Shown: positions 1-22,709 of the stretch, piece after piece
Position numbering within the stretch: the first letter of the stretch is position 1
Layout: every line of letters starts with the position of its first letter
IMG/VR virus record: IMGVR_UViG_3300025889_000783
Span: 1-27,218 of that record
DNA length: 27,218 bases
DNA from: a virus
Direction: 5' to 3' (one strand)
Position numbers and translations under genes: made by a program
Notes under the pieces: generated by a model
What the model was told of the DNA's origin: nothing
The model's input: the letters and a program-made list of their open reading frames with translations, nothing else
Database searches by the model: none

Positions 1-957
1 CTCGCCCTCGCCAAGTCCGTCGGCCGCACGCCGGAGGGCTTCTATGTGCCCTTCGAAGTATGGCGCCGCGATTTCAACGTCGGCACGACCACCGAGGCGG
101 GCAACCTCGTCGGCACGTCGATTCGCCCCGACTTGTATGTCGACGCCCTGCGCAATGCGCTCGTCATGGCGCGCCTGGGCGCCCGCGTGCTCGTCGGCTT
201 GACCGACAGCATCACCATTCCACGAAAAGCCACCGCCTCGAGCTTGGGCACATTAACGGAAATCGGCAGCGCGACCGAAAGTGCGCCGACCACCGCCGGG
301 CTCGGCCTTTCGCCCAAGCGCGTCGGCGCGTTCATCGAGGTATCCAAGCAAGCCATCATCCAATCGGCCCTTAGTCTCGAGGGCATGATGCGCGACGACT
401 TGCTCATGGGCGCCGCGGTGCAACTGGAAAACCTCGCCATCAACGGCAACGGCACCTCGCCGCAACACGCCGGCATCCGCAACACCACCGGCCGCGGCAC
501 CGTCGTCGGCGGCACCCACGGGCTCGCGCCTGCGTGGTCGCATTTCGTCGACCTCGAATCGGCGTGTGCCAACAGCAACGCCGAGCCCGACGCACTCGCC
601 GGCTACCTCCTCAACACCAAGACCCGCGGCAAGCTCAAGCAAACGCAGCTCGGCACGAATCTTCCCTTTATCTGGACGCCGGGCGCCTTCCCGGTCAACG
701 GATACCGGGCGCTCGTTTCGAACAACGTGCCCTCGAATCTCACGAAAGGCACGTCGACGACGGTGTGCTCAAGCGCGATTTTCTCGAGCGATTGGTCAAT
801 GGAGGTGCTCGCGTTCTTCGGCGCGCCCGATATCACCGTCGACCCGTACACCAAGGCCGACACCGGGCAAGTCAAGATCACGCTCAACCAGTTCGCGGAT
901 TCGGGCGTGCGCCTGCCGGCCGCCTTCGCAACCATCGACGACATGCTCGCCGGCTAA
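1..957 (+). CDS. HK97-fold major capsid protein (5' partial)
   Basis: The reading frame is open from base 1, so the gene starts before the window; 318 residues are visible. The N-terminal part (GFYVPFEV, then a segment running to the conserved IPRK) and the following P-domain-like stretch with ENLAINGNGT resemble HK97-type phage major capsid proteins. The C-terminal part, with the MEVLAFFGAPDITVDPYT region, matches the usual end of that family, where the subunit forms the A-domain of the icosahedral shell. It is the first visible gene of the rightward structural operon, and a head-tail joining gene follows two genes later. No prohead protease domain is visible; it could be fused upstream or be a separate gene. 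An internal GTG at 46 could be mistaken for the start, but there is no reason to prefer it because coding continues upstream. Confidence 0.85.
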   Translation, partial: LALAKSVGRTPEGFYVPFEVWRRDFNVGTTTEAGNLVGTSIRPDLYVDALRNALVMARLGARVLVGLTDSITIPRKATASSLGTLTEIGSATESAPTTAGLGLSPKRVGAFIEVSKQAIIQSALSLEGMMRDDLLMGAAVQLENLAINGNGTSPQHAGIRNTTGRGTVVGGTHGLAPAWSHFVDLESACANSNAEPDALAGYLLNTKTRGKLKQTQLGTNLPFIWTPGAFPVNGYRALVSNNVPSNLTKGTSTTVCSSAIFSSDWSMEVLAFFGAPDITVDPYTKADTGQVKITLNQFADSGVRLPAAFATIDDMLAG

Positions 958-1002: not shown

Positions 1003-2535
1003 ATGACTTGGCACATGGACGCCCCGCAAGGGAGCGAAGCGCGCAAGGTGCGATTCGACGTCGTGCAATACTGCGCATCGGGCATCGATGTCGGATGCGG
1101 CCCCGCGAAAGTATGGCCCGGCATGATCGGCGTCGACTCGCTCAAGGACACCGAGCTATTCGGCATCCCGATGAAACCCGACATCGTGGTCCCCGATGCG
1201 GCGCGCTTGGGCCTTTTCGGCTCGGAAGTGATGGAGTGCGTATTCTCCTCGCACCTCCTCGAGCATATTGCCGACTACAAGGCCGCGCTCGCGGAATGGT
1301 GGCGGCTCGTTCGACCGGGCGGCTATCTGGTGCTCTACCTGCCGCACCGTGATTTTTATCCGAACATCGGCGAGCCGGGCGCCAATCCCGACCACGTCCA
1401 CGACTTCGCGCCCACCGATATCGTCGACGCCATGCGCGAGCTCGCGCCCGATTGGGACCTCCTCGAGAACCAAGACCGCAACGGCGGCCTCGAGTACAGT
1501 TTCTTGCAGGTTTACCAGAAAACCGCACCCGGCACCGGCCAGCGGTACACGTGCGAGGCGCCCAAGCCCGCCAAAACGGCCGCCATCGTGCGCGTCGGCG
1601 GGCATGGGGATGCGCTTTGGGCAAGCTCGCCGGCGGCGCTCCTCAAAGAACAAGGCTATCACGTCACCATCTACACGACGGCCGGCGGCGCCGACGTCCT
1701 GCGCCATGACCCCAACATCGATCGCGTCGTCGCGCTTCCAAGTAGCGCCATGACCGACGAGGATTTGCTCGAGTATTGGGGGCACCTCGGCCGCCAATAC
1801 GATCGCTTCGTCAATCTCATCGGATCCGTCGAGCAATCGTTGCTACTCCACGACACCGAAATCGGCTTCTATCGACCGCACGCGCTACGGCACAAACTCT
1901 GCAACACCAACTACCTCGAGCGCGTCCATGACTTCGCCGAGGTGGCGTATGACTTCCGCCAAAAGTTCTATCCCACGCCGGCCGAACTCGAATGGGCCCG
2001 CAAGATGCGCGCCGAGCTCAAGGGCCCGCTCGTGGTCATTGCGCCGGCCGGCTCCGGGCAAGTGAAGTATTGGCCGCATGCGCAATCGCTCATGCAATCG
2101 CTCGGGCATCATGGGATTTATTCCGTCGTCCTCGGCGACGTGCGTGACCCCAAGCTCGTCGGCGTCGAACCCTGGGGCAGTGTCATCGGGATGGATTGGC
2201 CGATCCGATTGGCCCTCACGTTCGCCACGCTCGCCGACGCCGTCGTCGGCACCGAGTCGCTCATCGTCAACGCCGTCGCATTCGAGCCGATGCTCAAGAT
2301 CGTCACCATGTCGCACTCGAGCGCCGAGAATCTCACAAAGCACTGGACCAACACCGCGGCCGCCGAGCCCGTCGGCGTGGCCTGCCACCCATGCCATCGG
2401 ATTCACGGCTCGTTCAACTTTTGCGCGCAAGACAAGGGCACCGGCGCGGCCGCCTGTCAGGCATTCATCACGGCCGACATGGTCCTCGGCGCCTTGCTCA
2501 ATCACCTCAATTTCGAAAAAGCCGAGGCGGCCTAA
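1003..2535 (+). CDS. SAM-dependent methyltransferase fused to GT9-like glycosyltransferase
   Basis: A 510-residue two-domain protein. Residues about 20-175 look like a class I methyltransferase: the SAM-binding motif GIDVGCGP is at 27-34, HLLEHI at 84-89, and the VRPGGYLVLYLPH strand at 103-115. Residues about 190-500 resemble glycosyltransferase family 9 (ADP-heptose type): the N-terminal Rossmann start KTAAIVRVGGHGDALW is at 191-206, and a nucleotide-sugar-binding-like second domain runs from VVIAPAGSG (344-352) through GTESLIVNAVAFEP (416-429). The C-terminal region has a Cys/His cluster (C461, C464, H465, C474, C485) that could bind a metal. The gene sits between the capsid and head-tail joining genes, so a role in modifying virion proteins is possible, but this is inference; surface-polysaccharide modification is the alternative. 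There is no clear ribosome site, and ATG at 1015 is an alternative start. Confidence 0.75.
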   Translation: MTWHMDAPQGSEARKVRFDVVQYCASGIDVGCGPAKVWPGMIGVDSLKDTELFGIPMKPDIVVPDAARLGLFGSEVMECVFSSHLLEHIADYKAALAEWWRLVRPGGYLVLYLPHRDFYPNIGEPGANPDHVHDFAPTDIVDAMRELAPDWDLLENQDRNGGLEYSFLQVYQKTAPGTGQRYTCEAPKPAKTAAIVRVGGHGDALWASSPAALLKEQGYHVTIYTTAGGADVLRHDPNIDRVVALPSSAMTDEDLLEYWGHLGRQYDRFVNLIGSVEQSLLLHDTEIGFYRPHALRHKLCNTNYLERVHDFAEVAYDFRQKFYPTPAELEWARKMRAELKGPLVVIAPAGSGQVKYWPHAQSLMQSLGHHGIYSVVLGDVRDPKLVGVEPWGSVIGMDWPIRLALTFATLADAVVGTESLIVNAVAFEPMLKIVTMSHSSAENLTKHWTNTAAAEPVGVACHPCHRIHGSFNFCAQDKGTGAAACQAFITADMVLGALLNHLNFEKAEAA

Positions 2536-2811
2536 ATGGAACGCGACCCGGTCGCCGACTTTTTCGATCCGCTCGACGGGCTCACCACCCCGGCGCGCGT
2601 CGACGGTCGCACCATTCCCGTCCTTTTTGACGCCGCGTATACCGACGTCCTCGGCGTGGGCAGTGCATCACCGGCGGCCACGTGCTCGGATGCCAGCCTC
2701 GAGGGCGTGCGTGCCGGCGCGTTGATGACCATCAAAGGCGTCGACTATCGCATCGACATGCTCGAGCCCGACGGCACGGGCGTCACACTTGCGCGGCTAT
2801 CGAGAGCATAA
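2536..2811 (+). CDS. Head-tail joining protein (lambda gpFII-like)
   Basis: A 91-residue protein. The layout is an N-terminal D-P-V-A-D-F-F-D helix, then PVLFDAAYTDVLGVG, then an EGVRAGALMTIKGVDYRI strand pair, ending LEPDGTGVTLARLSRA. This is the pattern of the small lambda FII-type head-tail connector family, which caps the portal neck and forms the joint for the tail. The start codon lies directly after the stop of the preceding gene, so the two are translationally coupled. The position after the capsid gene and before the tail genes fits this role. Confidence 0.75.
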   Translation: MERDPVADFFDPLDGLTTPARVDGRTIPVLFDAAYTDVLGVGSASPAATCSDASLEGVRAGALMTIKGVDYRIDMLEPDGTGVTLARLSRA

Positions 2812-2815
2812 AAAC

Positions 2816-3046
2816 ATGCCGATCGTTTCCTCCTCCTACGCGATCGACGCCCACCAGCAGCAGGACGGCGGGCGCTACGTGCGCGAGACGCACACGGACA
2901 ACACCGGCAAGGTGTACGACGGCATCATTTACAAGCTGCCTGCGGGTGCCGGAACGACAGAAGCAGATGCGTTCCTGGCGCAGCATGCGGCGTCGCTCGA
3001 CGTGCAACTTGCCGAGGCGGAAGCGGAGGCCCTGATTGGCGATTAG
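2816..3046 (+). CDS. Small phage virion-associated hypothetical protein
   Basis: A 76-residue protein beginning MPIVSSSYAIDAHQQQDGGR and containing YVRETHTDNTGKVY, followed by an Ala/Glu-rich helix ending in LIGD. Similar short proteins occur next to tail-fiber genes in phages, but I know of no assigned function. The ATG at 2816 is preferred over an upstream ATG at 2789, which would overlap the preceding gene by 23 bases. Codon use changes here: Gln is CAG and Leu is often CTG, whereas the rest of the window prefers CAA and CTC. This is the first gene of a compositional island. Confidence 0.65.
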   Translation: MPIVSSSYAIDAHQQQDGGRYVRETHTDNTGKVYDGIIYKLPAGAGTTEADAFLAQHAASLDVQLAEAEAEALIGD

Positions 3047-3359
3047 TCTCAACCATCAAACCGAAGCAGAGTTCGCCGCACGTTTCTGGGCGAAGGTGCG
3101 CGAGGTGCGTCAGCAGTTTGAGGCTGCGGCACCTGGATCTCGTGAGAAACGTCTGTACGGTGAGAAGTTTGGCTACCTCATCTGGTGGTTGCACGGCAAG
3201 GTGACGAGCGGTGACATTACGAGCAACGCGGCGCGGCTGTCGTTCAACGCCGCGTATGGCCGTTCGCTCACCGCAGGGCAATGGAATACGTTCGTGACGG
3301 ACACGTTGATGCCGATCCGCGATAGGTATCAGGCGATGCTCGATCAGGGTGACATCTAA
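3036..3359 (+). CDS. Small alpha-helical hypothetical protein, TTG start
   Basis: A 107-residue mostly helical, charged protein (FWAKVREVRQQFEAAAPGSR near the N-terminus, then a W-L-H-G-K motif and a C-terminal DRYQAMLDQGDI). The start is TTG at 3036, overlapping the end of the preceding gene by 11 bases; the preceding gene's codons contain a GCGGAGG stretch that could serve as its ribosome site. The stop overlaps the next gene's ATG (TAATG). It belongs to the same compositional island. Function is not recognised; the position suggests a virion accessory protein or fiber chaperone. Confidence 0.55.
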   Translation: MAISLNHQTEAEFAARFWAKVREVRQQFEAAAPGSREKRLYGEKFGYLIWWLHGKVTSGDITSNAARLSFNAAYGRSLTAGQWNTFVTDTLMPIRDRYQAMLDQGDI

Positions 3360-4696
3360 TGGCGATCCAGTATTACACCTCGGCCGGAAACGGCACAGAC
3401 CCCACAGCAGGTTGGACGACAGGACACGCCACTTTAGCGGCGGCTCTTTCGGCGGCTAGTTCGGGCGACTCGGTATACATCGACATGGCGAATATCGCTT
3501 CCGGTGACTCTGGTGTAACTACCGCCACGACATGGACAGTCTCGGCCGGCGTAACGCTGCATGTCGGAACGCAAAATGGCGCGACTGATATTACGACCGG
3601 TTACATGGGCACGACATATTGGATCGGTCGATCTACGGCTGGCGCAAATATCACATTAAATACGGGGAAAGGGTGCAAGATCATCGGCGGACTGACACTC
3701 CGGGAGCATGGAGGCAATAGCCTTGTCGTGAACACTACTACGGGCAGCGGGTTTTTGTATGCAGACACGTTGACGCTTTGGCATAGTTCCACAACCGGAG
3801 GGGGCACCTCTAGGATTGGAGGGCAGCAAAACAACCAAACTCAAATCGAGACGCTAAACATAACATATGCTCGTACAAGCTCGACAATCAGTGAGTTTCA
3901 AGTCGCGGGAATTGTGCGGATTGGAGTCTTAACGCTGACCACGGGCGGCGCGACCGCCCCTTCGGGCGGCTGGATCAATGACCCGAATGTCTCCGCTGCG
4001 GCCAATCTGACGGTGAATGGTGGTGACATTTCTGCGCTTGGCAGTGGCGCGACCATTATTGGTGATTGCGGTAGTTCGCCGCTAACGTGCCGACTTGAGA
4101 ACACAATTCTCCCCGCAAGTTTTGTCGGCGTGACCACGCAGACAGGTGGCCTCGCTGGCGGTGAGTTGTTCTTGACCGATTGCTACGAGAGCACCGTTGG
4201 TGCGGTTCCTTTCGGCTACTTTAACGACTCTGGTCAGGTGATTGTTGATACCGGAATTTTCTTGACGGCAGGCATTTCGTCATCTTCGTGGAAAATCTCT
4301 ACTACAAGTAGATGTACTGCGCGCGAACCATTTTGGACGCCATTCATTTTTGAATACCAAGCGGCGGCTACGGTCACGCCTGAGTTTGAAGTGCTGCGTG
4401 AGGGCAATTCTTCTGCATACACAGACGCGGAATTCTGGATGGAGTCGCTTACTAAGCAGACATCCTCATCCGTCGAAACCACTTTTGAATCCACGCAAGG
4501 AACGGGGACGAATATAACAACAGGGGTCGGCACCTCATCATGGACGGTTAGCGGATCGCCGGGCGATTCTGGTGACTGGTCAGGCATTCTCTCCCAAGGA
4601 TCGACAGTGCTAGCAGAAGATGGCTTCGTTAAGAGCCGTATCTGCGCGGCTGTTGCCTCTTCCACGATTTACGTTGATCCGGGGCCGGTAGGCTAA
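3359..4696 (+). CDS. Beta-rich (predicted beta-helix) virion-associated protein
   Basis: A 445-residue protein dominated by short Thr/Ser/Gly/Val-rich strands. It opens MAIQYYTSAGNGTDPTAGW, then AHATLAAALSAASSGDSVYID-like sequence (in fact GHATLAAALSAASSGDSVYID over residues about 22-42), a pattern typical of the first turn of right-handed parallel beta-helix proteins. Repeated I-x-G-x-L-T-L and N-x-T-L units follow, and the C-terminus (about 355-445) looks like a separate domain. No enzymatic motif was seen. GC content is clearly lower than that of the neighbours, with AT-ending codons throughout, indicating horizontal acquisition. The ATG overlaps the upstream stop and the stop overlaps the next ATG. 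Likely a surface-exposed fiber, spike or decoration protein; the precise role is unknown. Confidence 0.6.
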   Translation: MAIQYYTSAGNGTDPTAGWTTGHATLAAALSAASSGDSVYIDMANIASGDSGVTTATTWTVSAGVTLHVGTQNGATDITTGYMGTTYWIGRSTAGANITLNTGKGCKIIGGLTLREHGGNSLVVNTTTGSGFLYADTLTLWHSSTTGGGTSRIGGQQNNQTQIETLNITYARTSSTISEFQVAGIVRIGVLTLTTGGATAPSGGWINDPNVSAAANLTVNGGDISALGSGATIIGDCGSSPLTCRLENTILPASFVGVTTQTGGLAGGELFLTDCYESTVGAVPFGYFNDSGQVIVDTGIFLTAGISSSSWKISTTSRCTAREPFWTPFIFEYQAAATVTPEFEVLREGNSSAYTDAEFWMESLTKQTSSSVETTFESTQGTGTNITTGVGTSSWTVSGSPGDSGDWSGILSQGSTVLAEDGFVKSRICAAVASSTIYVDPGPVG

Positions 4697-5568
4697 TGGC
4701 TGCAACCTCACGCGCATCACCAGGAGGCGGATGGAGTGTAGGAAGTGACTCCGATACGTTCTCCCGTGCCGTTCCCGGTGCCGAGTGGGAAGTGCAACAG
4801 TCCGCCGCCGGCCCGACTGACCTCGCCCTAGCTGACTTGTCGCACGGCCACACGCTCGACCACCTCGACCTCACGCAAACCCACGTCCTGGCCCCGGCCG
4901 ACTTGTCGCACGGCCACACGCTCGACAACCTCGACCTCACGCAAACCCACGCCCTGACCGTCGCCGATATATTGCACGCGCACGGCTTGGACAACCTCGG
5001 CCTCACGCAAGCCCACGTGCTCGCCCTAGCCGACGCGACGCACGGCCACACGCTCGACAACCTCGGCCTCACGCAAGCCCACGTGCTCGCCCTGGCCGAG
5101 CTATTGCACGGCCACACGCTCGACAACCTCGGCCTCACCGGCGCCGGCGATCTCGCCATCGCAGACGCGACGCACGGCCACGCGCTCGACAACCTCGCGC
5201 TCACGCAAGCCCACGTCCTCGCCCTGGCCGAGCTATTGCACGCGCACGCCGCCGACAACCTCGTGCTCGCCGGCGGGAGCTCACTAACGGTTGCCGACAT
5301 CGCGCACGGCCACATCGCCGACAACCTCGCCCTCGGTCAAGTCCACGTCCTCGCGCTCGAGGACGCCTTGCACGCGCACCTCGCCGACGGCCTCGCGCTG
5401 TCGCAATTGCACGTGCTCGTCATATCCGAGGCGGCGCACGCGCACCTACTCGACAACGTCGCCCTCGGCTTGGGCGGCACCGTGCCGCCGCGGCATGTCC
5501 TCGTCGTGCGCGGCGAATCGCGCACGCTCGTCGTCATGCCCAAGTCACCCACGCGCATCATCCACTAA
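4696..5568 (+). CDS. Histidine-rich tandem-repeat protein (ten 22-residue repeats)
   Basis: A 290-residue protein. After a 42-residue N-terminal segment come ten consecutive 22-residue units (residues 43-262), each approximating LALAD-x-x-HGHTLDNLxLTQAHV. Every unit has H-x-H at positions 8-10 and D-N at 13-14; most also have a third His at position 21. A 28-residue C-terminal tail (VPPRHVLVVRGESRTLVVMP) follows. The regular hydrophobic spacing suggests an elongated solenoid or fiber-shaft structure, and the aligned histidines could bind metal. Both ideas are inference. The first 40 codons share the composition of the preceding island; the repeats share that of the main phage backbone, so the junction lies inside the gene. 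Confidence 0.75.
   Translation: MAATSRASPGGGWSVGSDSDTFSRAVPGAEWEVQQSAAGPTDLALADLSHGHTLDHLDLTQTHVLAPADLSHGHTLDNLDLTQTHALTVADILHAHGLDNLGLTQAHVLALADATHGHTLDNLGLTQAHVLALAELLHGHTLDNLGLTGAGDLAIADATHGHALDNLALTQAHVLALAELLHAHAADNLVLAGGSSLTVADIAHGHIADNLALGQVHVLALEDALHAHLADGLALSQLHVLVISEAAHAHLLDNVALGLGGTVPPRHVLVVRGESRTLVVMPKSPTRIIH
4822..5481 (+). repeat. In-frame tandem repeat, 10 units of 66 bp
   Basis: Ten 66-bp units encode the 22-residue histidine repeats. The first five or six are the most alike at DNA level, sharing blocks such as CACGGCCACACGCTCGACAA; the last four have diverged. This gradient suggests unit duplication concentrated at the 5' end, and the copy number may vary between relatives. 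Confidence 0.85.
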
Positions 5569-5585
5569 CCGCCAAAGGCTCGCCC

Positions 5586-5849
5586 ATGAAAATCACCGCC
5601 ACCGCCAATTTCAAGCACGGCCGTTTCGCCTTTGCCAAGGGCGCCGCGTATGACGTGCCCGACCGTTTCGCCGGCCTTTTCCTCGGCAACGGATGGGCGA
5701 TCGAGGCGGGCGACGACGCGCCATGTATGCCCGTCGGCATCGCCGAGCTCGGCGCCAATGCGCCCGTCGGCGCGCTGCCCTCGGTCGACCGCGCCACGCT
5801 CACCGTCGAATCGGTCAACCACGCCGGCGCCAACAGTAACGCCGGCTAA
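5586..5849 (+). CDS. Small phage hypothetical protein
   Basis: An 87-residue protein starting MKITATANFKHGRFAFAKG and running through YDVPDRFAGLFLGNGWAIEAGD. The N-terminal half has the strand-turn-strand, then 'x-LFxGNGWAxEA' look common in short phage head or neck proteins. The C-terminal half is Ala/Val-rich and low in complexity. It lies between the repeat protein and two other small structural genes. No function is assigned. Confidence 0.6.
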   Translation: MKITATANFKHGRFAFAKGAAYDVPDRFAGLFLGNGWAIEAGDDAPCMPVGIAELGANAPVGALPSVDRATLTVESVNHAGANSNAG

Positions 5850-5875
5850 CGGTTCAACTCACCAAGGACGCAATC

Positions 5876-6277
5876 ATGGCGAAACGATGCAATCCCACCC
5901 TCCTCGACAAGATGCTCGACGCACTCAAAACCGGCTATTCGGGATTCGGCCCGGTCGATAAACAAGTCGCCTGTTCAGCCGAGCCCACGACATTCGCCGA
6001 GGCCAATGCCACGTATGCGCTCGCCGACGTGGCACTCTCGGGAACCGACTTCACGATCGCCAACGGCGACGGCGCCGGCAACACGCCCCGCAAAGCCACC
6101 GTCGGCGCCAAGTCGGGCGTCACGGTCGATACCAACGGCACCGCCACGCACGTCGCACTCATCGATACCGCGAATTCGCTTTTGCTGGAAGTCACCACAT
6201 GCACGAGCCAAGCTCTCACCGCAGGCAACACGGTGAACTTCCCCGCGTGGGATATCGAAATCGGCGCGCCGACCTAA
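5876..6277 (+). CDS. Small beta-rich structural-type hypothetical protein
   Basis: A 133-residue protein (MAKRCNPTLLDKMLDALKTG at the start). The C-terminal two thirds carry repeated TFAEANATYALADVALSGTDFTIANGDG-type strands and end in FPAWDIEIGAP, a beta-sandwich-like pattern found in short phage structural proteins. An AAGGA ribosome site precedes the ATG (about 5866-5870). It directly precedes the fiber-tail adaptor-like gene. Likely a virion protein; the role is unknown. Confidence 0.6.
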   Translation: MAKRCNPTLLDKMLDALKTGYSGFGPVDKQVACSAEPTTFAEANATYALADVALSGTDFTIANGDGAGNTPRKATVGAKSGVTVDTNGTATHVALIDTANSLLLEVTTCTSQALTAGNTVNFPAWDIEIGAPT

Positions 6278-6281
6278 TGCC

Positions 6282-6782
6282 ATGACGGCCGGCTTTTACA
6301 TCGCCGACGACCAAGTCGACGAGATCATCAAAGATCCGGCCGACGACTTGCCGTATGCGTTGGCGTTCTACGATTGGCTGCGCGGCTCGGATCAATACTG
6401 GTCGCATCGGCGCATCGTCAAGCCGGGCGAGACATACACGCCGGCCGCGGCCGCGTTGAACGGCTACCGCTACCGATGCAAAAAAGGCGGCCTCACCGGC
6501 AACGCGGCGCCCACATGGCCGACCACCGGCTCGGCCGATATCACCGACGGCGGCGTGACTTGGGTATTAATCGGCGCCGAGGACACGCTCGCCACCGTAA
6601 GCGTCACCCCTGAGTCGGGACTCACCGCCGACTCGCCGGAACTCGACGAAACCGGCACGCGCGCGCGGTTCAACCTGTCGGGCGGCACCGCCGGCCGGGC
6701 TTACCTCGTGACGGTCGAAGTCGCCACGACGCAGAGCAAGACCAAGCAAACGACGTTCCGCGTGCGGATGCGAGAATCATAA
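6282..6782 (+). CDS. Phage fiber-tail adaptor-like protein with an inserted domain
   Basis: A 166-residue protein. Residues 1-38 (IIKDPADDLPYALAFYDWLRG) and 101-166 (DTLATVSVTPESGLTADS to the SGGTAGRAYLVTVEVATTQ and TFRVRM strands) together match the small all-beta adaptor proteins found between neck and tail genes in many phages. Between them, residues about 40-100 form an extra module with GYRYRC, PTWPTT and DGGVTWVLIG. That signature is a small aromatic-rich domain usually seen at the ends of fiber proteins. The domain interrupts the adaptor exactly at the WLRGSD/DTLATV junction. The gene abuts the tail terminator gene with no gap. Confidence 0.6.
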   Translation: MTAGFYIADDQVDEIIKDPADDLPYALAFYDWLRGSDQYWSHRRIVKPGETYTPAAAALNGYRYRCKKGGLTGNAAPTWPTTGSADITDGGVTWVLIGAEDTLATVSVTPESGLTADSPELDETGTRARFNLSGGTAGRAYLVTVEVATTQSKTKQTTFRVRMRES

Positions 6783-19540: not shown

Positions 19541-19725
19541 CAATTCGCGGCCCCTTGCCCGTCGAGATAACAGTTTATCGCCGCCTGCGCCTCGCTCAAT
19601 TCCTCGAGGGCGCAATTTACGGCGTTCCGAGCGAACGCCGCTTGCTTTCTTGCGTCCTCGAGCGCCGATTGTGCGCGGGATAATTCCTCGTGAAGCTCGG
19701 CGATGTTGCGCTTCGTGTCGCTCAC
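19540..19725 (-). CDS. Small coiled-coil hypothetical protein
   Basis: A 61-residue protein, almost entirely helical (ELHEELSRAQSALEDARKQA followed by more heptad-like repeats), ending YLDGQGAAN. The GTG start at 19725 overlaps the integrase stop, and its stop overlaps the next start, so it is translated as part of the integrase operon. It could be a small regulator or structural helper. No family was recognised. Confidence 0.55.
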   Translation of the reverse strand: MSDTKRNIAELHEELSRAQSALEDARKQAAFARNAVNCALEELSEAQAAINCYLDGQGAAN

Positions 19726-20726
19726 TTCGCGGCCTCCTGTTCGTCCGGCGGATCGATCCAGTCAAGGCCGGCGGCCTCAATGTATGTTTGCGTCATTGCC
19801 TTGCTCGAGTGCCCACCGAGCCGGCGCGCATTCTTGCCCTGGCGCTCGGCGTCGGTAATGGCCCGATGCCGCAAATCGTGAAAGTGTGCATCGGTCACGC
19901 CGGCGGCGTTGCACGCGCGTTCCCATGCCGAATTTGCGCCGCTATACGTCAACGGCTGGCCGGCGCGCGTGTGCACGACCCACAACGACGACACCTTAGT
20001 CGCCACGCGGCACCGCTCGAGCACCGCGCGCAATCGGGGCGTCATGCGGATCGGGACGGCGACAGCCGTTTTTTTCTGGACCTTCGCCGGCCGGAAAATG
20101 ATGCCATCGGCGCGGACGTCCGACCATTTGAGCGACAGCAAGTCGCCGATTCGCTGCCCGGTCACGAGCGCCAAGTCGACGAGTCCGGCCGTCATCGCCG
20201 AGGATTTCGCCTTGATGCGCGCGATTTCCTCGTCGGTCAAATACCTCGAGCGCGCGCTCACCGAAAAGCTCGCAATCTCGCGGACCGGATTGTCATCACG
20301 CCGGCCGCGGCGTACCGCGTAGCTCATAATGAGAAGAAGCAACGATCGATACGCATTGCCGGCGCGCGGGCGATCCTTCCATTGATCGACGAAGTCGGCC
20401 ACGTCCGACGGGCGCACGTCGGCGACTTCGAAGTCGCGGAAAGCCTCGGCGATGACGACGGCCATGCGCTCATATTCTTTTTTCGTCGCCGGCGAATACT
20501 TGCCGAGCTCCGCGCCTTTCCATGCCGACACGATTGCCGGCATGGCCGAATCGCTCGGCGGCCGATGGAGTCTCGCGAGGGCATCGTAAAGCGCGGCCGG
20601 GCCCTCGTCGACGCGCGACAACGGCAACCATCGCCGCTTGAGCCGGCCGCGCCGATCGCGCTCGACGGACTGCGCGATCCAGAAATAGCGCCCGTTTTTT
20701 GCTGTGACCTTCGGCGGTAGTTTCAT
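19722..20726 (-). CDS. Tyrosine recombinase (phage integrase)
   Basis: A 334-residue protein. The N-terminal part (about 1-55) looks like an arm-binding domain, followed by a SAM-like core-binding domain (about 60-150) and the catalytic domain. Catalytic residues seen: Arg192 in TGQRIGDLLSLKW, a Lys at about 216-219, HxxR in His283-Asp-Leu-Arg286, His306 in LGGH and the nucleophile Tyr315 in TQTYIE. It would integrate the phage at the tRNA-Pro site whose 3' half lies about 480 bases beyond its end. The ATG at 20726 is chosen because it overlaps the DUF4224 gene stop (ATGA). Confidence 0.92.
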   Translation of the reverse strand: MKLPPKVTAKNGRYFWIAQSVERDRRGRLKRRWLPLSRVDEGPAALYDALARLHRPPSDSAMPAIVSAWKGAELGKYSPATKKEYERMAVVIAEAFRDFEVADVRPSDVADFVDQWKDRPRAGNAYRSLLLLIMSYAVRRGRRDDNPVREIASFSVSARSRYLTDEEIARIKAKSSAMTAGLVDLALVTGQRIGDLLSLKWSDVRADGIIFRPAKVQKKTAVAVPIRMTPRLRAVLERCRVATKVSSLWVVHTRAGQPLTYSGANSAWERACNAAGVTDAHFHDLRHRAITDAERQGKNARRLGGHSSKAMTQTYIEAAGLDWIDPPDEQEAAK

Positions 20727-20977
20727 CGCCCCACCTCGCGCACGCGCGGCCGGTTCACGTCGCGGCCGTTGGCGACGTAGCGCCCGTCGCATACGGCCTC
20801 ATAATGTGCTCGCTCGAGAACGCACCGGCCGAGCCGGTCAATGCGCGCACGCGGAAAGCCGAGCCGATGGAGCTCGGCCAATTGCTCGCCGGCGCGGCTG
20901 TAGCCCGTGACGTCGAAGAGCTCGAGGTGAGACAGCGTCGGCGCCGCGCCGATGGGGGTGACGGTTCCGGTTTGCAA
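20723..20977 (-). CDS. DUF4224 protein (integrase-associated, possible excisionase)
   Basis: An 84-residue protein containing LELFDVTGYSRAGEQLAELH then LGFPRARIDRLGRCVLERAH, the winged-helix-like DUF4224 pattern found directly before phage integrases. By position and size it may act as an excisionase or directionality factor; this is inference. The start is TTG at 20977, seven bases after a perfect AGGAGG (20990-20985 on the minus strand), so it is preferred over an upstream extension that lacks a ribosome site. ATGA links it to the integrase. Confidence 0.75.
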   Translation of the reverse strand: MQTGTVTPIGAAPTLSHLELFDVTGYSRAGEQLAELHRLGFPRARIDRLGRCVLERAHYEAVCDGRYVANGRDVNRPRVREVGR

Positions 20978-21709: not shown

Positions 21710-21753
21710 ACAATAACCTAAAGGTTATACGTAAAGCAATACCGACGGGTTAT
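21710..21753 (-). promoter_or_regulatory. Promoter of the leftward integrase operon with operators O1 and O2
   Basis: O1, at 21713-21728, is a 16-bp site with perfect arms ATAACC and GGTTAT. O2, at 21738-21753, reads AATACC-N4-GGTTAT. On the minus strand TTGCTT (21739-21734) and TATTGT (21715-21710) are separated by 18 bases. The -10 falls in O1 and the -35 overlaps O2, so a repressor bound at both would block the promoter. Confidence 0.6.
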
Positions 21754-22154
21754 ATTTTCGGGATGTTTCGCCGCGGCCGCATGCCGGGCTCGATCGGCCC
21801 GCCATTGCCGATGACGCGCGCGAACTCGACCACGTGCGAGCGTTGCTCGGCCGACAGTGCCGACAGGATTTCGAATAATTGGGAAAGGTCAGGGTCGGCC
21901 TCGATCGGCCGCGTCGGCGTCGACCGCATGCCGAGCAGATAGCGCGCCGACACGCCGAGCAACTCGCACATGATGAGCAACTCCTCGGCGCTCGGTTCGC
22001 CTTTCCCCGCGAGCCAGCGCGAGACGCGGGCGCGTGTGATCTTCGGCGCCCGGCGCGCCACCAGACGCACCAAGCCTTGCACCGTACAGCCCGCGGCCGT
22101 CATGGCGTCCAGCAACCGCTCACACAGCGCCGGCCTTAAGTCACGGTCGGTCAT
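21750..22154 (-). CDS. XRE-family HTH regulator (repressor-like)
   Basis: A 134-residue protein. Residues about 10-70 form a Cro/CI-type HTH (AAGCTVQGLVRLVARRAPKI, then VSRWLAGKGEPSAEELLIMC and GVSARYLLG). The C-terminal part is a short helical dimerisation-like region. No LexA-type peptidase domain is present, so repression would not be relieved by RecA cleavage. The ATG at 22154 has only a weak ribosome site, and a longer N-terminal extension without support is open upstream. Its 3' end meets operator O2. Confidence 0.7.
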   Translation of the reverse strand: MTDRDLRPALCERLLDAMTAAGCTVQGLVRLVARRAPKITRARVSRWLAGKGEPSAEELLIMCELLGVSARYLLGMRSTPTRPIEADPDLSQLFEILSALSAEQRSHVVEFARVIGNGGPIEPGMRPRRNIPKI

Positions 22155-22197
22155 TGCCAGCCTGTTCTTTTTTGTATTAGTGAACTCGCAGTCTGTT

Positions 22198-22260
22198 ATA
22201 GCGCATTTCTGGCCGCGTGTACGAGGCATTAATAGCGCATTTCTGGCCGCGTGTACGAGG
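22198..22260. repeat. 34-bp-period direct repeat upstream of the XRE regulator
   Basis: A 29-bp sequence at 22198-22226 recurs without change at 22232-22260, offset 34 bp; similarity continues for several bases beyond each copy. It fills the gap between the two leftward regulator genes. It could be a binding site for a regulator or a recent tandem duplication; the sequence cannot tell which. Confidence 0.85.
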
Positions 22261-22262
22261 AA

Positions 22263-22709
22263 TTAGTCATCCGCGCCGGCTTTTTCTGGCTTGGCGGATC
22301 CCGGTAGACGGCCGGCGGCCCGGTAGGCGCGCGCACGTCGGGCGCGTACGGACAGCGTCGACAGTACGCGGCGTTGATCGTCAGGGAGGAGGGCACGATA
22401 GTCCTCAATGAGCTCGCGCGGAATATCGGCCGGGAGCGGCTCATCGCCGCCGATGCGATCCATCCAGCCGGGCGCCTTGCCGAAATGGTACTCGAGCGCG
22501 CGCGCGAGTCGGTCGCCGATGTTGCGCCGGCTGGCCTCCTGCGACGACGTGATCCGATACAGGCTCACCGGCGACGCCAGATTGAGCCGCCGCGCGACCT
22601 CGGCCACGTTGCCGCCGCATTCTTCACGAAGTAACCGATCGTATTGGATAGCTCGAACTCGATGGATTGCTAACGTCGGCACGGTCAAGGCCCCCGGTGA
22701 AAATGACAC
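22263..22709 (-). CDS. HTH repressor-like protein (CI position)
   Basis: A 148-residue protein. The N-terminal half has GGNVAEVARRLNLASPVSLY, an HTH, followed by ASRRNIGDRLARALEYHFGK and APGWMD, a signature common in phage repressor N-terminal domains. The C-terminal part is basic (VRARRARAYRAAGR) with no peptidase motif. It is divergent from the Cro/YdaS-like gene with operators O3 and O4 between them, the classic CI-Cro arrangement. The GTG at 22709 gives 148 residues; a GTG at 22682 is an alternative start preceded by GGGGG. Confidence 0.7.
   Translation of the reverse strand: MSFSPGALTVPTLAIHRVRAIQYDRLLREECGGNVAEVARRLNLASPVSLYRITSSQEASRRNIGDRLARALEYHFGKAPGWMDRIGGDEPLPADIPRELIEDYRALLPDDQRRVLSTLSVRARRARAYRAAGRLPGSAKPEKAGADD

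Follow-up and report, generated by a model that had tools for sequence, protein, structure and literature searches.

A methyltransferase–GT9 fusion gene that follows the capsid gene in phage head modules of two unrelated types, and its possible role in virion glycosylation

The fusion gene in the head operon

The window analysed here is a stretch of 27,218 bases that makes up an IMG/VR virus record. It begins with the C-terminal 318 residues of a major capsid protein of the HK97 fold (1–957, plus strand; the 5′ end of the gene lies outside the window), which was recognized by phrog_617 (E 1.8e-58) and TIGR01554 (E 6e-18). After a gap of 45 bases follows an open reading frame of 510 codons (1003–2535, plus strand, ATG to TAA) and then the gene for the head closure protein Hc1, a head–tail connector (2536–2811, plus strand; phrog_82, E 8.7e-8). 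The sequence at the latter junction, TAAATG (2533–2538, plus strand), joins the stop codon directly to the start codon of Hc1, an arrangement of translational coupling. A hairpin in the gap behind the capsid gene did not exceed shuffled sequence in strength (z −0.73). The initial annotation had described a methyltransferase fused to a GT9-like domain, placed between the capsid gene and a head–tail joining gene and coupled to the latter, and both the reading frame and its flanks are exactly as it said.

The N-terminal part of the protein (residues 5–176; 1015–1530, plus strand) is a class I SAM methyltransferase domain, as judged from PF08241, structural matches and alignment. PF08241 scored 38.7 bits in the window protein against a Pfam threshold of 21.2 (E 1.6e-9), and a profile search found it at E ≤ 0.01 in 40 of 40 homologues. 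The glycine-rich SAM motif, DVGCG, is located at residues 29–33 and is followed by the conserved motifs SSHxLEH (82–88) and NPDHxHDF (128–135). The C-terminal part (residues 190–509; 1570–2529, plus strand) is a GT-B domain of the GT9 (heptosyltransferase) type, an assignment based on structural matches and on PF01075 in homologues. In the window protein itself PF01075 stayed below threshold, with 17.9 bits against a cut-off of 22 (E 0.002); it was detected at E ≤ 0.01 in 15 of the 40 homologues, and the homologue from a Gallionellaceae MAG exceeded the cut-off with 27.2 bits. About 130 distinct full-length homologues retain both the fusion and its motifs, and the fusion is thus not a product of chance.

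To model the structure, an alignment of 40 homologues with 34–66% identity to the window protein was used instead of the single sequence, for which AlphaFold gave a pLDDT of only 38. The alignment-based model had a mean pLDDT of 92.7 and a pTM of 0.86, and it contained both folds for which the initial annotation had proposed to look. Residues 5–176 have a Rossmann fold and matched SAM methyltransferases, with 3dli as the top match (Z 15.5, VIA-align), and the best matches of residues 190–509 were 3tov (Z 23.5), WaaF (Z 22.9), TibC (Z 19.9) and WaaC (Z approximately 19). Among the PDB and viral-structure matches listed, none covered both domains.

The predicted catalytic residues of the GT-B domain are conserved. 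In TibC, Asp-110 is the base, and Lys-230 and Thr-226 contact the phosphates of the donor (PMC4358343). The counterpart of the base is Asp203 in the motif RxGxxGD (1609–1611, plus strand), which was invariant in 40 of 40 homologues and aligned with the GD of 3tov; the motif was present in all 136 unique reading frames. Lys355 (2065–2067, plus strand), with Ser351 four residues before it, corresponds to the phosphate-binding pair. Lys355 was also invariant in all 40 homologues and aligned with the AKRWP of WaaF, and Ser351 was nearly invariant. The equivalence of these three residues to those of TibC is derived from motif spacing and from the 3tov and WaaF alignments, not from a superposition of coordinates. 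The Asp of the N-lobe GD and the Lys of KxWP, which are features of GT9 membership, are therefore present as D203 and K355. The donor loop of the fusion family, by contrast, reads E-[ST]-[GL]-x-x-N instead of the usual D-[ST]-G-x-x-H of GT9, with the invariant E418 in place of the Asp and Asn423 in place of the His. The usual loop is found in WaaF and most bacterial GT9 enzymes and is not obligatory for every member of GT9; the bacterial GT9s that we inspected in two genomes retained its Asp. For this reason we call the domain GT9-type and not an LPS heptosyltransferase. The two substitutions point to a donor pocket unlike that of the LPS heptosyltransferases, in which a sugar other than heptose may be bound.

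Near the C-terminus Cys461, Cys464, Cys474 and Cys485 form a metal-finger-like cluster, CxxC-x9-C-x10-C (2383–2457, plus strand), in which all four Cys residues were invariant in 40 of 40 homologues. The initial annotation had considered such a cluster unusual for GT9. However, TibC has an iron-binding finger of the form CxxC-x15-C-x11-C (Cys-339, 342, 358 and 370; PMC4358343), and a C-terminal CxxC...C...C cluster was found in five of the seven GT9 reading frames of two bacterial genomes. After inspection of these genes we rejected the cluster as a peculiarity of the fusion. It is an ordinary feature, common in other GT9 enzymes and thus not diagnostic of TibC or Aah.

Position behind the capsid gene and distribution of the family

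In IMG/VR, relatives are encoded by at least 469 stretches. No full-length fusion was found in 50,697 GenBank phage records or in 72,556 plasmids, and no description of such a fusion was found in the literature searched. Three matches in bacterial genome contigs came from a scan for close relatives, and a profile search identified nine carriers among 398 Pseudomonadota genomes, including the starting Gallionellaceae genome. The eight newly found carriers contain nine loci, two of them in one genome, and in each case the fusion is preceded, at a distance of about 0.9–4.9 kb on its own strand, by a phrog_1357-type phage coat gene. In the ninth carrier (L082) a capsid gene of the phrog_617 type is directly upstream. 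Because the relatives were gathered by sequence similarity, very diverged members at other sites would escape these counts; many of the IMG/VR records are fragments, and genes in the relatives were called by our own heuristic.

After removal of near-copies, 126 loci were left, and those lacking an upstream capsid gene were checked by hand. A capsid gene was located upstream on the same strand in 114 loci, and 11 were truncated. The sole locus with a capsid-like gene downstream of the fusion, and not upstream, was L155:4387-11502. When the search was started from the capsid side, the fusion was present in 16 of 18 and in 51 of 53 loci having enough sequence.

These loci belong to two kinds of head module. 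In the HK97-type module the gene order is portal, protease–capsid protein (phrog_617), fusion, Hc1 and tail terminator; the relatives of the window capsid are protease–capsid fusions of 600–680 residues, 63–76% identical where they lie beside the fusion. In the P22-like module the portal (phrog_1216), scaffold and coat (phrog_1357) genes are separated from the fusion by one to several small genes, and the fusion is followed by an adaptor-like gene and then Hc3 (phrog_578). Most relatives have an abutting stop and start or an ATGA overlap at the downstream junction of the fusion. Cultured phages with related capsids, approximately 31–35% identical (S-CBS3, CRP-811, VP882, ECO1230-10 and RcRhea), have only small genes at the place of the fusion. 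In a tree, the fusions of the HK97-type phages formed one clade (100/100), which argues for a single move of the fusion between head types with retention of its slot. The fusion thus accompanies the capsid gene in both head modules, unrelated as they are, and its homologues do not sit randomly with respect to head genes, a point on which the initial annotation had staked its proposal. Within 8 kb, no family other than the fusion was widely common to both phage groups, and a common substrate would therefore be the capsid, a head protein too diverged to be recognized, or a host molecule.

Between Hc1 and the tail terminator, and outside the conserved unit, the window has a variable island of the fibre type (2789–6782, plus strand), in which the GC content drops to 52–59% at 3001–4500. 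It contains a Ser/Thr-rich reading frame of 445 residues (3359–4696, plus strand; 27% Ser+Thr), a reading frame of 22-residue tandem repeats (4696–5568, plus strand; 66-bp period, nine overlapping 198-nt register copies) and a reading frame resembling a fibre–tail adaptor (6282–6782, plus strand; PF23148). The reading frames at 2789–4696 had no homologue in any fetched relative, and the repeat reading frame had a weakly related one at L172:2385-3683. Tail-fibre genes occupy the equivalent place in S-CBS3. The initial annotation had named the island and repeat proteins as candidate substrates. These proteins are largely specific to the window phage, while about 130 other phage types carry the enzyme without them, and the island was therefore rejected as a general substrate. 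Further downstream, a tyrosine integrase and small helix-turn-helix regulators were noted by eye at 19722–20792, 21750–22229 and 22263–22709, all on the minus strand. The window phage is probably temperate.

Heptose genes and other enzymes at the slot

Genes for heptose donors were found close to the fusion in several lineages. In the group L069–L081 the next gene encodes a bifunctional heptose kinase/adenylyltransferase, with a GmhA-type isomerase upstream; within it, L071 has HldE directly after the fusion. In L032 a heptose kinase is located inside the head operon, between the portal and scaffold genes. Overall, an HldE adenylyltransferase was present in 7 and a GmhA-type isomerase in 6 of 47 records, a heptose kinase in 9 of 76 long records, frequently accompanied by further genes for ADP-D,D-heptose, and a GmhB-type phosphatase in 4 of the 12 records tested; the HldD epimerase was found in none of those 12. 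All four steps to ADP-D,D-heptose are encoded in G018 (L035). In this 67-kb phage record (also L261 and L262) the genes for GmhA, the heptose kinase, the HldE adenylyltransferase and a GmhB-like protein are divided between the two ends, and a short overlap of the kinase gene between the record ends suggests a circular map. TibC accepts ADP-D,D-heptose and not ADP-L,D-heptose (PMC4358343).

The window record contained no heptose genes when adenylyltransferase, isomerase and kinase were sought, so the donor would here come from the host or be another sugar. Among the 50,697 GenBank phage records, 37 matched the bifunctional protein, mostly through an adenylyltransferase domain in cyanophages; since the GenBank and IMG/VR collections differ, this is an indication that heptose genes are enriched in fusion-bearing records and not a measured ratio. 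Searched from the kinase side, 11 of 80 viral heptose-kinase loci carried the fusion (10 intact and one split), which shows that heptose genes are not specific to the fusion and serve other phages too.

In phages without the fusion, the slot can be filled by genes for other transferases and methyltransferases. A second type of fusion, in which an MptE-like domain (PF01973) is joined to a methyltransferase, was found in the same operon region at L042:5226-6719 and L333:12901-14448. In L333, which has heptose genes, the coat gene is followed by this MptE-like–methyltransferase gene and then by a GT8-type gene, where the contig ends. In L042 the MptE-like–methyltransferase gene and an FkbM-type methyltransferase gene adjoin the GT9 fusion. 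A TylF-type methyltransferase adjoins the fusion in L065 and L066, and in L022 one closely precedes the capsid gene; L208 has no fusion in its 5.2 kb and a weak methyltransferase match there. Together, these arrangements suggest that genes at this slot have sugar transfer and methylation as their common theme.

The two halves of the fusion are not equally well preserved. In two copies from one bacterial genome (L393:6839-8620 and L394:6018-7748) the conserved loop of the methyltransferase was lost and the glycosyltransferase domain was intact. In L299:19258-20851 the two domains were in separate frames, split by approximately 0.2 kb, and the intervening sequence looked by eye like a homing-endonuclease remnant. 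Because of this decay and this separation, the methyltransferase step is the weaker half of the function proposed below.

Proposed function and relation to known systems

As the fusion sits behind the capsid gene and some of the phages encode the synthesis of its presumed sugar, these phages probably decorate their own particles with sugar. We favour, with moderate confidence, a virion-glycosylating heptosyltransferase with a companion methyltransferase. The soluble two-domain enzyme would be a late product, made alongside the capsid and the connector. Its GT9 domain would move heptose onto hydroxyls of a virion protein, and the SAM methyltransferase domain would then methylate the transferred sugar or the glycosylated protein, resulting in virions capped with methylated heptose. 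A purpose in shielding, stability or adhesion may be imagined. The initial annotation had likewise proposed that the enzyme acts on the virion itself, for example by adding a methylated sugar to capsid or fibre. This remains the best reading and gains weight from the ADP-heptose genes of some phages, and the folds and the position that it named are supported; its views of the Cys cluster as peculiar and of the island as substrate are not.

There is perhaps one chance in four that the GT9-like domain uses a non-heptose nucleotide sugar and that the heptose genes of some phages serve other enzymes, which would still be compatible with a virion acceptor. In favour of this are the replacement of D by E and of H by N in the donor loop and the lack of heptose genes in most carrier records. 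However, heptose genes adjoin or even enter the head operon in several lineages (L071 and L032), and HldD was absent in all 12 records tested.

An acceptor other than the capsid is somewhat less probable. An enzyme of the same class could modify a tail fibre, an adhesin or a decoration protein; TibC and Aah act on autotransporter adhesins, in which Ser residues of a beta-helix become modified (PMC4358343). Some loci have Ser/Thr-rich or beta-helix-like reading frames downstream, such as the one at 3359–4696 in the window or L032:8323-9870 (weak PF13229). On the other hand, the fixed neighbour of the fusion is the capsid gene, no fibre family is widely common to both phage groups, and the island reading frames of the window at 2789–4696 lack homologues in the relatives fetched. 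The fusion-less L175, a single lineage, had lost 4 of 17 conserved Ser/Thr columns of its capsid compared to 3 of 62 other columns, a difference noted post hoc (Fisher p 0.035), but no Ser/Thr column cleanly separated fusion-bearing from fusion-less capsids, as other fusion-less capsids keep some, and in the P22-type coat no Ser/Thr column was lost with the absence of the fusion. Co-variation was thus dropped as evidence for a capsid acceptor. Residues 247–252 of the window capsid form a Thr/Ser-rich insertion, KGTSTT, that is conserved in fusion-adjacent capsids and absent in five cultured relatives, yet kept in the fusion-less L175.

Modification of the host envelope, either of the LPS core or of the O-antigen, during infection or lysogeny is an unlikely reading. 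It could provide superinfection exclusion or prevent the loss of progeny by adsorption to debris. The addition of heptose to LPS is the classical reaction of GT9 enzymes, envelope-modifying genes are frequent in temperate phages, and every cellular carrier found was Gram-negative. Such genes are, however, usually isolated morons at variable sites, whereas the fusion has a single slot, behind the capsid gene, in head types that are unrelated to each other, and is coupled to a connector gene. Moreover, the enzymes of the LPS core require L,D-heptose, and the heptose gene sets of the phages lack HldD. Glycosylation and methylation of phage DNA, a lipid or a small molecule instead of a protein is very improbable: DNA glycosyltransferases and methyltransferases do occur in phages, but the fold is that of GT9 and not of the DNA glucosyltransferase type, nucleotide-modification genes were not noticed nearby in a non-systematic inspection, and a slot in the head operon does not suggest DNA modification.

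Beyond a virion-glycosylating enzyme as such, we tentatively envisage a widespread system of capsid heptosylation, a possibility to which we give slightly less than an even chance. The fused enzyme would attach D,D-heptose to new capsids of unrelated phages and methylate it there, some of these phages would bring their own ADP-D,D-heptose pathway, and the slot would be a hot spot for interchangeable capsid-sugar enzymes. If glycosylation by the fusion is borne out, it is common in environmental phages and goes with the capsid gene in head architectures of unrelated kinds, the heptose chemistry of bacterial adhesins is also used by phages, and there would be a bearing on phage stability, adhesion and immune recognition. 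The fusion provides a simple marker gene, and sequenced bacterial genomes are available that contain it within phage head modules.

To our knowledge, phage virion glycosylation is documented for few systems. Capsid glycosylation in phage Che8 and the GT9 family are already known; a fused, capsid-linked and widespread enzyme was undescribed in the literature searched. Glycans on the Che8 capsid have been demonstrated (cited in PMC11256854), and phage-encoded glycosyltransferases of Che8 and the cluster F1 mycobacteriophages are held to modify the major capsid protein. In Maravista the glycosyltransferase genes are located towards the 3′ end of the genome (PMC11256854), while the fusion is a single enzyme in the head operon of phages with other hosts. 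Synechococcus phage S-T4 encodes a free-standing relative of the methyltransferase domain beside an HldE adenylyltransferase gene, in a glycan cluster that also encodes a phosphoheptose isomerase; this large T4-like phage has no GT9 fusion, and the cluster lies outside the head operon. WaaF, WaaC and the Veillonella GT9 enzyme 3tov share the fold (Z 19–23.5) and the GD and KxWP motifs, but the fusion differs in its E...N instead of D...H donor loop, its attached methyltransferase and its head-gene neighbours. TibC and Aah share the GT9-type GT-B fold (Z 19.9), counterparts of the Asp base and of the Lys/Thr-type phosphate site, and the C-terminal four-Cys finger; a protein acceptor would be expected in both cases, and the associated phages would supply ADP-D,D-heptose without HldD. 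In contrast, the fusion is located in phage head operons with no autotransporter gene, the identity is approximately 12%, and the N-terminal beta-barrel of TibC and Aah is replaced by a SAM methyltransferase. Because of this N-terminal domain the fusion was not classed as a bacterial autotransporter heptosyltransferase (BAHT).
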